Shown here in pieces: positions 12,438 to 18,124 of a stretch of 64,000 nt of DNA. Origin of the DNA: an uncultured Verrucomicrobiota bacterium (GTDB lineage: Bacteria > Verrucomicrobiota > Verrucomicrobiia > Verrucomicrobiales > DEV007). The notes under the pieces are model-generated. The model had not been told where the DNA came from, did not search any database, and was given only the letters and a program-made list of their open reading frames with translations. Position 1 is the first letter of the stretch. Each line of letters starts with the position of its first letter. The stretch covers positions 1 through 64,000 of the forward strand of contig CACIUL010000005.1 of the NCBI GenBank assembly GCA_902589825.1, read 5' to 3'. The position numbers were made by a program, and so were the translations under genes.

Positions 12438-12472
12438 TTGCAACGTGATGCGCGGGTTGGTATAATTCTTTG
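12438..12472 (+). promoter_or_regulatory. Leaderless promoter with consensus -10 box
   Basis: TTGCAA (12438-12443), 17 nt with GATGCGCGGGTTG, TATAAT (12461-12466), 6 nt, ATG at 12473. This is the best -10 match in the window. Confidence 0.72.
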
Positions 12473-15400
12473 ATGAAGCATGGAAAAGGCTTTCCCATAG
12501 CAAAGTTTGCTATCTTTTTGTTGTTCTCTTGTTTATCTGCTCAGGGCACTGAGGGGAACAGGTTGTCTCATCTCGATGAGCCTAATAATCCTTGGCAATT
12601 TAATAGACAATCAGCCAAGCTCATTACTCCACAGTGGATCGGAGAAGAGGGTGTCGAAGCCGTGGCTGTCCTCGCGATTGATGATCTGTCAGGTGACGGT
12701 CAGCACTTCCGTAATTATCTGACTCCAATCATTGAAAGACTCAAACTTATCGATGGTCGTGGTCCTGTCAGTATTACTTGTAATCGTCCGGAGCCGGATC
12801 ATCCTAATATGCAATGGTTCTTTAAGCAGGGAGTCTCCCTGGAAACTCACACCCTGACTCACCCGTGCCCATTGCTACAGCGGTATGATTTTAGAGGGGC
12901 CCGAGCCAACTACCATGGTTGCGTCGACTTACTCACTTTGATACCAAATAACCGTTCTGTCGGATTTCGCTTTCCGTGCATGGATGGACAAAATACACCG
13001 AGTCCACGCGCTTACGCTGAAATTCTTAATGGGGTCAGTGACCTTGGTAATTTTATGACATCAAGTTCGAGCGTGGGCATTGTCTTCACACCGGAAGATC
13101 CTGAGATTCCCAAATCCATTTTTGAGGATGACCCGGCCGGGGCCAGACGCTTTTCAAAGTATTTGATGAATGGCTTTGTTAATTACGTGGAGAATTATCC
13201 GTACCCTTTTGTTGTTGGTAATCTGATTTGGGAGCTGCCTTTTGTTTATCCAAACGATTATACCGGTCAGACGCTGCACGGCAATCAGAACCCGGTGACG
13301 ATCACGGATTTCAAGGCAGCAGTCGATGCGACGGTCGCCAAGAAGGGAGCCGTCTCCTTGTGCTTTCACGCGGGCGGTTGGATGAGCAGTCAACAGATGG
13401 CAGACATTGTCGATCACTCTGATAAGACTCATGGAAAGAAAGTGAAGTTTCTAAACATGCGTGAGATGGATGAGAGGATCGTAGAAAATATGCTTTCCGG
13501 CCATGCGCTTCGCCGCGCCGATGGAGGGGATAATGGGGTTCGTGTTTTTGATATTAATGGGGACGGGTTCATGGATGTTTTGATTGCCAATAAGAAGGCG
13601 AAGATCACAAGGATTTGGCAACCTAAAAAAGGGAAGTGGCTAAACATTCCTTTCCCGGCGGCGCTTCATCATGATTTGCGCTTCGGAATCCTTGAAGGAT
13701 CGGAAAATCCAGTCGCGCTAACACCAAAGACTGGATGGCGTTTTAGTGGTAAAGCCTGGATCGAGGATAAGACACTCGCCGCGGGTCAGAGTGGGTTCAG
13801 GCTCCTTGATCTTGATAACGATGGCAACTGTGAATTAATTTCTAATGATTCGGTTAAGCAGCGCATTGAGGGCGCTTGGAAATTATTACCTTTTAACCTT
13901 CCTAAGAAAACTGAGATTGAAAGGGAAGACCGTGGAGATGCGGGGATGCGTTTTGCTGACATTGATGATGATGGAAATCAGGATGTGATCTTCTCTAATG
14001 GTGAGTGGTTTGGAACTTGGATCTTTGAATCGATGGAGAAGGGATGGTCGAGGCCTGGTCTCTATGGAATACGCGGGAACAGTGGTGTCGGTAAAGATCA
14101 CCCGCGCGGACGTGATACCTTACCGCCGATCGTGCGGGCGGATGGAACCAATAATGGCGCGTGGATTAAGCGGGGGCACCTTTATTGGCAGAACGAGGAC
14201 ACGGGCGCCGTTATGTCTCATCACATTGATCAGCGCAGCTTCGGTGACTTGATGGGAGATCAGGTTAATTATCCAAGGACTGCCAAAGCTTCACTTAAAG
14301 CCATGCAACCGCGGCCTGGTTTCCGGGTCGAGCTAGTCGCGGCCGAACCGCTCGTTATGGATCCTGTCGATGTGGCATGGGGTCCCGACGGCACCATGTG
14401 GGTCGTTGAAATGGCGGACTACCCGATCGGTATCGATAACAAGGATAAGCCTGGGTCACGGGTCGCAGCCATCACCGATACGGATGGGGACGGGCAGTAT
14501 GATAAGCGAACGCTTTTGGCTGATGGACTTGAGACTGCCAGTTCGGTTCTACCGTGGAGGGATGGAGTTCTGGTTGTGGCACCTCCGAGCGTTTGGTTTT
14601 TAAAGGACACTACTGGTGATGGTAAGGCTGATAAAAAAGAAATTCTTTATGAGGGTTTTGGCAGAGGCAATGAACAGCACCGTGGCAATGGACTTGTGTG
14701 GGGACTGGACGGTTGGATCTATGTTGCCAATGGCGATAGCGCGGGAACAATCCGATCGACTCGCTCAGGTAAGAAACTTAATCTCGGTGGTTTTGATCTC
14801 AGAATCAAACCAGACACTGGAGAGCTTGAGCCCGCCACCGGGGTAACTCAGCACGGACGTAACCGCGACGACTGGGGTAATTGGGTCGCGGGTAATAATT
14901 CTTCTGGATGGCAGATTGCTTTGGAAGATCACGATATCAGGCGTAACCCAAAAGTATCTCAGCCTTCCAATAGACATGGTATTAATGGAGTCATTGACCT
15001 TTATCCGATCAGTCGGGTTTTAAGTCACTACTCAGGTTACAAGGCGCCTCCGGCTGGATCTCCCGGGAAACTGACTTCTGGATGCGGTTATACATTTTAC
15101 CGAGACTCCCTCTTCGATGGGATCATTGAACCATCGGTTTACTATTCCTGCCCGGTCCACAACTGCATTCACCGAGAAGTGATTTCTTGGAACGGCGTTC
15201 TCATGAATACGGGGCGCGCGAGTGATGAGGCGAGGAGTGAGTTTTTACGAAGTTCAGATTCTTGGTTTCGTCCTGCTTCGATTCGCACTGGCCCCGACGG
15301 TGCCATGTATGTGGCGGACCTTTATCGTTTGGTCATTGAGCACCCTGAATGGATTGATGATACGCTGGAAAAAGAGATGATTGCCGATGGCCGATTGCGC

Positions 15401-18124
15401 GCGGGTCATGACAAGGGCCGCATCTATAAGATTTTTCCTGAAGAAGTAAAGTTGCACGATTCAGCAATCCTGGCGGGGAAGGGGCCGGAGGAACTCGCAT
15501 GGTTTATGGATTCGCCCAATGGTTGGCAACGTGATACGGCTCACATGATGTTAACCTGGCTTAATGAAAGTGAGCAAAAGAAGGCCGTTGCGAATCTTCA
15601 TAAAGTTTTAAAGAGTCAGCATCCCGCAGCCCGCGCCCAGGCCCTCAGCGCCTTGACAGATATTGAGGGGCTTTCCGTTGAAGCGATGCGCTCGGGTTTA
15701 AATGATAAGCATCCAGGGGTCCGTCGTAATGCGCTGCGCGTTGGTGGTTATCTATTGAACCAAGACTCAAAGTTGGGGCAGTTAGCTGTGGCTTTACTTG
15801 ATGATGAGGACGCGCACGTTCAGAGACGTGCTGCCTATACTCTTGGCTATTGGGATGATCCGCGTGCTGGTCAGGCCTTAGGCAAGTTTCTTGTTAAGAA
15901 TACTGACCGTCCTTACATGAGGGCTGCGGCATTGACCTCGGCTGGGTCATTTCCTGATGAGGTTTTAATTTCGGTACTGGCCATGAAGCGCACCCCTGCG
16001 ACGGTGGCTCTTAGTAATGAGCTCATGGGGATGCTTGGCAATGATGCAAAAAAGTTTGTGCCGCTGGTCATTGCCAGAATTGCTACCAAGCCGGCGGAAG
16101 GTAAGTCCTACGAGCCCTGGAAGCTTATAGCGGCGACGCGTCTTCTGGAAGCAGTCGGTCAGGATGAAGGGATTCGCGCCAAGGTAGCACCTATGCTCGA
16201 AGGGGCACGCAGCATCGTGACTAATGAAAGCCAAGACCTCGAGAGCCGACTCGCAGCCATTCAACTCATTGAGCAGGCCGCTCCTAAAGCCGAGGAGGAC
16301 ATAAAGCCTCTCTTGAGCCTTTTAAAGTTAACGACTCCAGTCGAACTGCAGGTCGCCATTGCCAAATCAGTTCTGCGTCATGAAGATACCGGGGCCGCGC
16401 CACAAGTTTTGGCAGGCTGGTCAGAGCACGGGCCGGCCTTACGAAGCGCGATCATTGATTCTCTTTTGGCTCGACCGAAGCTCACGGTTCTCTTCATGGA
16501 TTCAGTTGCCAAAAATAAGGAGCTAGCCACTTCGATTGACGTGAGCCGCAGGCAATTCCTTCTAAACCACGAAAGTGAATCGATTCGCAAGAAGGCAGGA
16601 GAACTCTTTGGTGGTGCGACGAGACCGGACCGTGCTGCCGTCATGAAGGAGTATGAAGTTTCATTGTCCAATGAAGGTAACAGGGACAAAGGGCGCGCCG
16701 TCTTTGGTAAAGTTTGCGCTTCGTGTCATAGGCTCGATGGGGTTGGTAAGGTTGTCGGTCCGAACCTCGCGGGGCTTAATAACCGTGCGCCGGCCACTTA
16801 CTTGACAGCTATCCTTGATCCGAACCGAGCCGTTGAGGCGAAGTGGATGATGTTTGTTGCCAAGACTAAGGAAGGTTTGACCTTAGCCGGCTCCGTGGCC
16901 GAGGAGACCAGCTCGGCAATTACGCTGACCGGTGTTGATGGAACTCGCACAAGTATTTCGCGCAGTGATCTTGTTTCACTTGAATCTACTGGTCGGTCCC
17001 TTATGCCGGAAGGACTTGAAACCGCCATAACCCCTAGTGAAATGTCAGACCTCCTGACCTACTTACGCTCCACGGGCAGACCCTTAAAACAGGCCGTCGT
17101 TAAAGGAAATACCGTTGAGCACTTGAGTGCGGATCATGATGGTTTCTACTCAATCAGCTTTGATCCAGTCCCGGGCGCGACGGGTATAGAACTTGAATGG
17201 GTCAATGAAGGAAACTTTAAGCACTGGACGATTCGTGAAATTGAAGCCTATGCGAACTTTGATAGTTTGGTTGATATTGTTTCCGGCAACGTTCTTCCTG
17301 GCCCGGTCCGTACCGTGGATAATGTTTTTGCTAATGCCTTTGATGGGAACCCTGAAACGTGGACCTACCAAACGCAACCCTACACCAACAAGGCTCCTCA
17401 GCGAACTCTCCTTAATCTCGAACCTGGGGCTCACACCTTGGACCGGATTCGTATTAATGATATCGCGGGTAACGATACTAATGGTCGCATGCAACAAATC
17501 ATCGTGCGGGTCACGACCGACACAACCTCTGATCTCGCTGCCCGAAAATACACCGATGTGACTAATGTTTCAGTGCAGATCTTTGGCGAGGTGGAGAACC
17601 AGGTTTCTACCAAGGAAAAGGAACCAGAGACTTCAGGGCCCTTCGGTGGAAAGCCTCAAAGTATTCCAGGAAAAGTAGAAATGGAACACTTTGACGAGGG
17701 CGCTCCCGGCACCGCCTACAAAGATAACGACCCCAAGAATCAGGGCGCTAAATATAGAAAGAACACTCAGGTGGATATTGAAAAACGCAGTGATGCTTCC
17801 AACGGCCATGGTGTTGGTTGGATCAATGCCGGTGAATGGATCAATTATACGGTCGAAGTCAAAGAGTCCGGAACTTACGATATTAAAATTCCAGTCGCCG
17901 CTCAAAAGGTGGGGGGCCTATTCCATCTGGAGATTGGAGGGAAGGATCTTACTGGTCCGATCCGTATCCCTGACACTGGTGGCTGGACAAAATTAAAAAC
18001 TCTTACTCATAAGGAACTCAAACTGACGAAAGGCTCTCACGTGATCAGAGTTGTCATGGATGAGAATGGTGAAAGTGGTTACGTCGGAGACATCGACTGC
18101 ATGATTTTTAGTCGTTCCGACTAG
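12473..18124 (+). CDS. Giant secreted protein: deacetylase-like, VCBS, PVC dehydrogenase-like propeller, HEAT, cytochrome c, CBM6
   Basis: 1,883 residues with a signal peptide (to about 25). Domains in order: divergent NodB/polysaccharide-deacetylase-like barrel (about 60-335; LAIDDLSGDG, ETHTLTHP, CFHAGGW); FG-GAP/VCBS-like Ca-binding repeats (350-545; DINGDG, DLDNDGN, DIDDDGNQD); PVC membrane-bound dehydrogenase-type propeller (about 610-985); HEAT repeats (990-1330); PVC-type c-heme domain with CASCH at 1415-1419; a discoidin-like beta domain (1540-1690); and a CBM6-like module (about 1730-1883). It probably binds a polysaccharide and acts on it by deacetylation and/or oxidation, passing electrons to its heme. 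The propeller-HEAT-heme core is common in PVC bacteria; the N-terminal deacetylase-like fusion is unusual. The ATG at 12473 is preferred over the TTG at 12470 on promoter spacing. Confidence 0.88.
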   Translation: MKHGKGFPIAKFAIFLLFSCLSAQGTEGNRLSHLDEPNNPWQFNRQSAKLITPQWIGEEGVEAVAVLAIDDLSGDGQHFRNYLTPIIERLKLIDGRGPVSITCNRPEPDHPNMQWFFKQGVSLETHTLTHPCPLLQRYDFRGARANYHGCVDLLTLIPNNRSVGFRFPCMDGQNTPSPRAYAEILNGVSDLGNFMTSSSSVGIVFTPEDPEIPKSIFEDDPAGARRFSKYLMNGFVNYVENYPYPFVVGNLIWELPFVYPNDYTGQTLHGNQNPVTITDFKAAVDATVAKKGAVSLCFHAGGWMSSQQMADIVDHSDKTHGKKVKFLNMREMDERIVENMLSGHALRRADGGDNGVRVFDINGDGFMDVLIANKKAKITRIWQPKKGKWLNIPFPAALHHDLRFGILEGSENPVALTPKTGWRFSGKAWIEDKTLAAGQSGFRLLDLDNDGNCELISNDSVKQRIEGAWKLLPFNLPKKTEIEREDRGDAGMRFADIDDDGNQDVIFSNGEWFGTWIFESMEKGWSRPGLYGIRGNSGVGKDHPRGRDTLPPIVRADGTNNGAWIKRGHLYWQNEDTGAVMSHHIDQRSFGDLMGDQVNYPRTAKASLKAMQPRPGFRVELVAAEPLVMDPVDVAWGPDGTMWVVEMADYPIGIDNKDKPGSRVAAITDTDGDGQYDKRTLLADGLETASSVLPWRDGVLVVAPPSVWFLKDTTGDGKADKKEILYEGFGRGNEQHRGNGLVWGLDGWIYVANGDSAGTIRSTRSGKKLNLGGFDLRIKPDTGELEPATGVTQHGRNRDDWGNWVAGNNSSGWQIALEDHDIRRNPKVSQPSNRHGINGVIDLYPISRVLSHYSGYKAPPAGSPGKLTSGCGYTFYRDSLFDGIIEPSVYYSCPVHNCIHREVISWNGVLMNTGRASDEARSEFLRSSDSWFRPASIRTGPDGAMYVADLYRLVIEHPEWIDDTLEKEMIADGRLRAGHDKGRIYKIFPEEVKLHDSAILAGKGPEELAWFMDSPNGWQRDTAHMMLTWLNESEQKKAVANLHKVLKSQHPAARAQALSALTDIEGLSVEAMRSGLNDKHPGVRRNALRVGGYLLNQDSKLGQLAVALLDDEDAHVQRRAAYTLGYWDDPRAGQALGKFLVKNTDRPYMRAAALTSAGSFPDEVLISVLAMKRTPATVALSNELMGMLGNDAKKFVPLVIARIATKPAEGKSYEPWKLIAATRLLEAVGQDEGIRAKVAPMLEGARSIVTNESQDLESRLAAIQLIEQAAPKAEEDIKPLLSLLKLTTPVELQVAIAKSVLRHEDTGAAPQVLAGWSEHGPALRSAIIDSLLARPKLTVLFMDSVAKNKELATSIDVSRRQFLLNHESESIRKKAGELFGGATRPDRAAVMKEYEVSLSNEGNRDKGRAVFGKVCASCHRLDGVGKVVGPNLAGLNNRAPATYLTAILDPNRAVEAKWMMFVAKTKEGLTLAGSVAEETSSAITLTGVDGTRTSISRSDLVSLESTGRSLMPEGLETAITPSEMSDLLTYLRSTGRPLKQAVVKGNTVEHLSADHDGFYSISFDPVPGATGIELEWVNEGNFKHWTIREIEAYANFDSLVDIVSGNVLPGPVRTVDNVFANAFDGNPETWTYQTQPYTNKAPQRTLLNLEPGAHTLDRIRINDIAGNDTNGRMQQIIVRVTTDTTSDLAARKYTDVTNVSVQIFGEVENQVSTKEKEPETSGPFGGKPQSIPGKVEMEHFDEGAPGTAYKDNDPKNQGAKYRKNTQVDIEKRSDASNGHGVGWINAGEWINYTVEVKESGTYDIKIPVAAQKVGGLFHLEIGGKDLTGPIRIPDTGGWTKLKTLTHKELKLTKGSHVIRVVMDENGESGYVGDIDCMIFSRSD

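Follow-up and report, generated by a model that had tools for sequence, protein, structure and literature searches.

A NodB-fold domain fused to a DUF7133 propeller, a cytochrome c domain and a CBM6 in an uncultured Verrucomicrobiota bacterium

The PVC-type heme-binding CxxCH proteins, recognised by the models TIGR02604, TIGR02603 and DUF7133, combine a propeller, HEAT repeats and a C-terminal heme domain; a literature search returned nothing direct on DUF7133, on the "PVC-type heme-binding" family or on deacetylase fusions. Cytochromes of PVC bacteria joined to carbohydrate-binding modules have already been reported: He et al. (2017) describe PSCyt1-3 proteins with CBMs in planctomycetes, encoded near sulfatases, and propose a role in carbohydrate use; as far as the accessible part of that text goes, these belong to other cytochrome and PSD families, with neither NodB nor DUF7133 (PMC5615132). 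Among characterised proteins, the one closest to the redox half of the protein studied here is CcPDH of Coprinopsis cinerea, in which heme, AA12 and CBM lie in one chain and electron transfer from PQQ to heme has been reported (PMC4332668). In both proteins a sugar-dehydrogenase propeller is combined with a heme domain and a CBM, and the propeller studied here aligns to 6jt5 at Z 23.3. However, CcPDH has an N-terminal heme b, a CBM1 and no deacetylase, whereas here the heme is of type c and C-terminal, the CBM is a CBM6, and the use of PQQ is putative.

The window analysed is the whole stretch of 64,000 nucleotides, positions 1-64,000 of the forward strand of contig CACIUL010000005.1 (assembly GCA_902589825.1), from an uncultured marine Verrucomicrobiota bacterium (DEV007). 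It contains, on the forward strand, a single open reading frame at 12470-18124 that yields 1884 amino acids counted from a TTG, or 1883 from the ATG that opens the coding sequence 12473..18124; residues are numbered with the TTG at 12470 as residue 1. The domains follow each other in the order NodB fold, FG-GAP/VCBS, DUF7133/TIGR02604 propeller, HEAT, TIGR02603 cytochrome c, unnamed module and CBM6. Since TIGR02604 and TIGR02603 both score above their curated cut-offs in this one chain, the protein belongs with the PVC-type heme-binding CxxCH proteins, to which it adds the N-terminal NodB domain, the FG-GAP region, the unnamed module and the CBM6. An earlier note on this DNA had read a large multidomain gene from the sequence: Pfam, NCBIfam, AlphaFold and motif conservation confirm it, and the domains that it listed are indeed in one chain.

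About 25 other genomes encode proteins with the NodB-VCBS-DUF7133-HEAT-cytochrome order, whose N-terminal third is 38-99% identical to the one here. These genomes come from separate assemblies, which rules out that two genes were merged by assembly, the artefact that the note itself had considered. Most of the relatives that carry a name are Verrucomicrobiota MAGs (Puniceicoccaceae, Roseibacillus, Opitutia), and one record is labelled Blastopirellula. When 388 genomes of the phylum were searched with a profile, only the organism's own genome was listed; these 388 are a sample, genomes known to carry the NodB form are not listed, and the result has little bearing on rarity. One homologous frame, L071:7081-12921 (Roseibacillus SP114), has a stop within DUF7133, which is either a sequencing error or a pseudogene.

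The N-terminus is rich in K and H and continues with FAIFLLFSCLSAQG; read directly from the sequence, this putative Sec signal peptide (12473..12544, forward strand) suggests that the protein is probably exported. A consensus scan predicts a sigma-70-like promoter, TTGCAA-17-TATAAT with TG before the -10, at 12438..12466 on the same strand; it has 10/12 consensus matches and an extended -10. The expected +1 of this promoter falls on the ATG at 12473, so the mRNA may be leaderless. In the homologue L039, TAACAT is also present a few bases 5' of the ATG.

We propose, with a probability of about one half, that the secreted chain binds a glycan, deacylates and oxidises it, and sends the electrons out through its own heme. 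The CBM6 would hold the protein on the polysaccharide, and the NodB domain would use a metal to hydrolyse off acyl groups, probably acetyl. A sugar hydroxyl of the exposed glycan would then be oxidised by the DUF7133 propeller, whose fold and key histidine are those of soluble quinoprotein sugar dehydrogenases; the c-type heme in the same chain would take up the electrons from the propeller and hand them on to the respiratory chain. Both activities, their order and their coupling are what we infer, as are the cofactor (PQQ or another) and the substrate, which would be an acylated, perhaps sulfated, marine polysaccharide.

The first step of this proposal concerns residues 40-350 (12587..13519, forward strand), whose NodB-type barrel is a secure prediction. 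The AlphaFold model of residues 28-605, computed with 26 sequences, has a pLDDT of 90.6 and a pTM of 0.90, and both Foldseek and VIA-align rank polysaccharide deacetylases first. The best VIA match is the polysaccharide deacetylase 3rxz, with Z 20.1 over 245 residues and an rmsd of 3.3, followed by 3qbu (Z 18.6), PuuE-like proteins (18.6-18.0) and chitin deacetylases (17.5). A profile search with the domain also hits the peptidoglycan deacetylase PdaC (E 1e-5), in an alignment that brings the His and RxP motifs into register. Enzymes of the NodB/CE4 type share five motifs: TFDD, H(S/T)xxH, RxPY, DxxDW and LxH. We take D71-D72, H127-x3-H131, R167, D263 and H300 to be the five counterparts, a correspondence that the PdaC alignment checks in part. 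Each of these residues is kept in 27-28 of the 28 aligned homologues; H127, T128 and H131, in the HTLTH metal-ligand motif (12848..12862, forward strand) that aligns with the PdaC His motif, are invariant (28/28). The NodB barrel that the note had read is thus borne out, as are its Asp/His/His metal ligands, and together they suggest a deacetylase activity.

The domain shares its fold (Z 20.1 to 14) and motif residues with the NodB/CE4 deacetylases 3rxz, HpPgdA-like 3qbu, chitin deacetylase 5zns and PdaC 6h8l. It differs from them by an identity of 8-15%, by the additional conserved residues C133, C151, C170 and D172, by its fusion to a redox core, and by Pfam, in which the N-terminal 350 residues have no match even at E 10. 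Consequently, we file it as NodB-fold and CE4-like, not as a member of CE4; and since current models miss it, such fusions go unannotated. This silence of Pfam would also agree with a second reading of the chain, in which catalysis is confined to the dehydrogenase-cytochrome part, the NodB domain being a pseudoenzyme that binds glycans. CE4 pseudoenzymes are known, and BA3943 entries are even among the VIA matches, but here 27-28 of 28 homologues retain the residues of the five motifs, although identity over the rest of the domain falls to about 40-48%, and we consider a loss of catalysis distinctly improbable. Among the frames compared, we saw no stand-alone NodB domain of this type: every complete NodB-like frame also has the VCBS region and DUF7133.

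The FG-GAP/VCBS beta region that follows, residues 350-600 (13517..14269, forward strand), is recognised by Pfam as FG-GAP_3 (447-507, 3 stretches), and Foldseek matches it to the FG-GAP propeller lectins PVL and PAL. The DUF7133/TIGR02604 propeller comes next, at residues 606-991 (14285..15442, forward strand; Pfam DUF7133 at 606-991, E 4e-131; NCBIfam TIGR02604 at 617-991, 239.3 bits against a cut-off of 122.2), and leads into the HEAT-repeat region, residues 1000-1390 (15467..16639, forward strand; Pfam HEAT_2), which is helical in the model. The AlphaFold model of residues 596-1545 has a pLDDT of 83.3 and a pTM of 0.74; its helical repeats swamp a Foldseek search, so VIA-align was used instead. 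With 956 chains aligned to the core, the AA12 pyranose dehydrogenase 6h7t comes first, at Z 24.1, and PQQ-dependent sugar dehydrogenases, CcPDH, sGDH and Asd follow at Z 23.8-21.5 (1c9u, 22.4). The non-redox propellers HHIP and DFPase are next, at Z about 21: a lead of 1-3 Z units is small, and the fold alone is no proof of sugar oxidation.

Further evidence comes from a histidine. In sGDH, residue 144 is the general base. A profile alignment to 1c9u/5min places His737 (14678..14680, forward strand) at that position, and it is invariant in the NodB-fused set, 21/21, whereas the sGDH-type histidine is only partly kept in the wider family and missing in some paralogues. R797-N798 and the Arg of WFRP resemble residues that contact PQQ. 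The propeller thus has the fold and the His at position 144 in common with sGDH and aldose sugar dehydrogenase; those enzymes, however, are single-domain, and their Ca2+/PQQ residues are only partly matched here.

The main weakness of the proposal is the cofactor: genes for PQQ synthesis are not identified. PqqC had no match in 94 genomes of the order, in a search whose control genomes also gave no match and which thus had no working positive control, and PqqE gave only matches below the cut-off in the organism's own genome. Import of PQQ is possible, as far as the accessible part of one report indicates (PMC12124388). The same difficulty could be turned into a different explanation, namely that only the deacetylase is catalytic, with the propeller as a platform for structure or binding, like that of HHIP, and the heme used for sensing or attachment. 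HHIP and DFPase among the fold matches, the PQQ synthesis genes that were not seen and the incomplete conservation of the histidine in the wider family all lean that way; yet AA12 and sGDH do come ahead of those propellers, if only by 1-3 Z units, His737 does not vary in the NodB-fused set, and the heme motifs are kept, with a cupredoxin replacing the heme in paralogues. On balance we regard this explanation as unlikely, although it is the one to be taken most seriously after the deacylation and oxidation of a glycan.

The cytochrome itself, a TIGR02603 cytochrome c domain homologous to Kustd1711, occupies residues 1403-1534 (16676..17071, forward strand), with 115.9 bits against a cut-off of 68.15 in NCBIfam, and Pfam finds Cytochrom_C at 1407-1456. 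Its heme attachment site CASCH (16715..16729, forward strand) has residues C821, C824 and H825, in the numbering of alignment A2, invariant in the homologue alignment; the heme CXXCH and the MPEG/MPDG motifs are retained in nearly all homologues. Met1512 (17003..17005, forward strand), in SLMPEGL, aligns with Met292 of Kustd1711, whose hemes have His/Met ligation with Met292 distal (PMC11791136); by this analogy it is probably the distal ligand. In two paralogues of the same genome, L076:1422-5189 and L083:2141-5485, a cupredoxin of the plastocyanin/azurin type stands in place of the C-terminal cytochrome c, an exchange that fits the role of an electron carrier.

At the C-terminus, Pfam recognises CBM_6 at residues 1760-1881 (17747..18112, forward strand; E 3e-21, 76.4 bits against a cut-off of 28.9). 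Only six relatives have it (L040, L044, L059, L062, L070 and L071), and L065 has a weak match; most lack it, which tells against the proposal. L059, at 99% identity, perhaps represents nearly the same organism, and the frames of L040 and L071 are broken by a stop. The immediate neighbours of the gene, MORN/Sel1 repeat genes and TSP3, are uninformative on function. Elsewhere in the window lie three sulfatases, a SASA acetylesterase with PA14, a GH9, a weak GH20 and a PSCyt/PSD protein, which is the usual repertoire of a glycan degrader.

These genes, together with the CBM6, the LamG of relatives and the sugar-dehydrogenase fold of the core, argue against a substrate other than a polysaccharide. 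Under that hypothesis, the N-terminal hydrolase would have an acylated substrate of another kind, such as a lipid amide or a cyclic amide: the allantoinase PuuE is among the top fold matches, and domains resembling Ceramidase_alk are found in the nearest relatives without NodB. We hold it to be very unlikely. It is thus natural to read the protein as acting on a polysaccharide, as the note did, given its CBM6 and its sugar-dehydrogenase matches; extending this to the whole core family, as the note also did, is not supported.

All 75 genomes searched in the bacterial family have homologues of the core, as many as 36 matches in one genome, but the NodB form is in a minority. In the organism's own genome, DUF7133 occurs as 28 stretches spread over about 25 proteins, and 16 of these paralogues were scanned for partner domains. 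The N-terminal partner is ThuA in L076, L077 and L084, with a remnant in L082, and SGNH/GDSL in L079 and L083; L074 starts with a ceramidase-like and LamG region, and L085 has a C-terminal part resembling DMFA2_C. Among the nearest relatives without NodB, 10 N-terminal extensions were scanned: 8 match Ceramidase_alk, several of them together with LamG. Other such relatives have no long extension. Since the deacetylase shares a variable N-terminal position with other domains, the fusion alone cannot name the substrate of the core family: with several other partners, a minority of NodB forms and a CBM6 in six relatives, the note's hope that it would give the whole family a function is not sustained. 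The core is better described as having a variable N-terminal hydrolase slot and a swappable electron carrier, cytochrome c or, in two paralogues, cupredoxin. The deacetylase form nevertheless offers a good entry point, with two predicted chemistries that can be assayed in one chain and a CBM that should help to find the substrate. The domains resembling Ceramidase_alk, often with LamG, lie ahead of the DUF7133-HEAT-cytochrome core in L130, L134, L135, L137, L138, L141, L142 and L144.

A more general conjecture, which we offer as speculative and rather unlikely, is that the core is a respiratory dehydrogenase of glycans or acyl-glycoconjugates, preceded by a slot for "deprotecting" hydrolases (NodB, SGNH, ceramidase-like, ThuA) and followed by the swappable carrier: the blocking group would be taken off and the uncovered position oxidised, perhaps giving 3-keto sugars for the 3-keto-disaccharide hydrolases encoded nearby. 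If true, these would be a new class of enzymes that deacylate and then oxidise within one chain. A gene next to the 85%-identical homologue in L039 combines a sulfatase with a 3-keto-disaccharide hydrolase domain. Since proteins with this domain are hydrolases of 3-keto sugars (PMC9007349), it is tempting to guess that the core acts as a 3-dehydrogenase. In the organism's own genome, DUF7133 lies within 2 kb of a 3-keto-disaccharide hydrolase in 5/25 cases against 1.6 expected (p about 0.02), and p is 0.05-0.07 at 1.5, 3 and 5 kb. This excess, computed in one genome at several distances and with some approximate gene boundaries, is suggestive only.

On the propeller tree, the NodB label requires 3 changes, against 17.3 in shuffles; these could come from one gain with two later losses or replacements, but do not show a single clean origin. 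The three other members of the genus, L049, L050 and L051, have propellers 75-78% identical to that of the window, and NodB domains at 46-48%, with motifs RMPCCD, PSDW and FHPHGW instead of RFPCMD, PNDY and FHAGGW. On the NodB tree, the window's type forms one clade that excludes these three, with support 100/100. Either a domain exchange or fast change in one branch could have produced this difference, the order of the forks being weak. Distances correlate less between NodB and propeller (r 0.67) than between propeller and cytochrome (r 0.94).

Between the cytochrome and the CBM6, comparison of homologues delimits a conserved, unnamed module at residues 1545-1745 (17102..17704, forward strand), for which Pfam has no match and a profile search of the PDB came back empty. 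Near two homologues, a separate gene contains it twice, at L039:4261-5988 (reverse strand) and L068:4132-6744 (forward strand). No operon partner is conserved over the whole homologue set, and conservation of neighbours is confined to close clades. In Opitutia relatives, a cytochrome gene and, next to it, a separate DUF7133 gene adjoin the fusion, at L067:5074-8878 (reverse strand) and also in L065 and L066.
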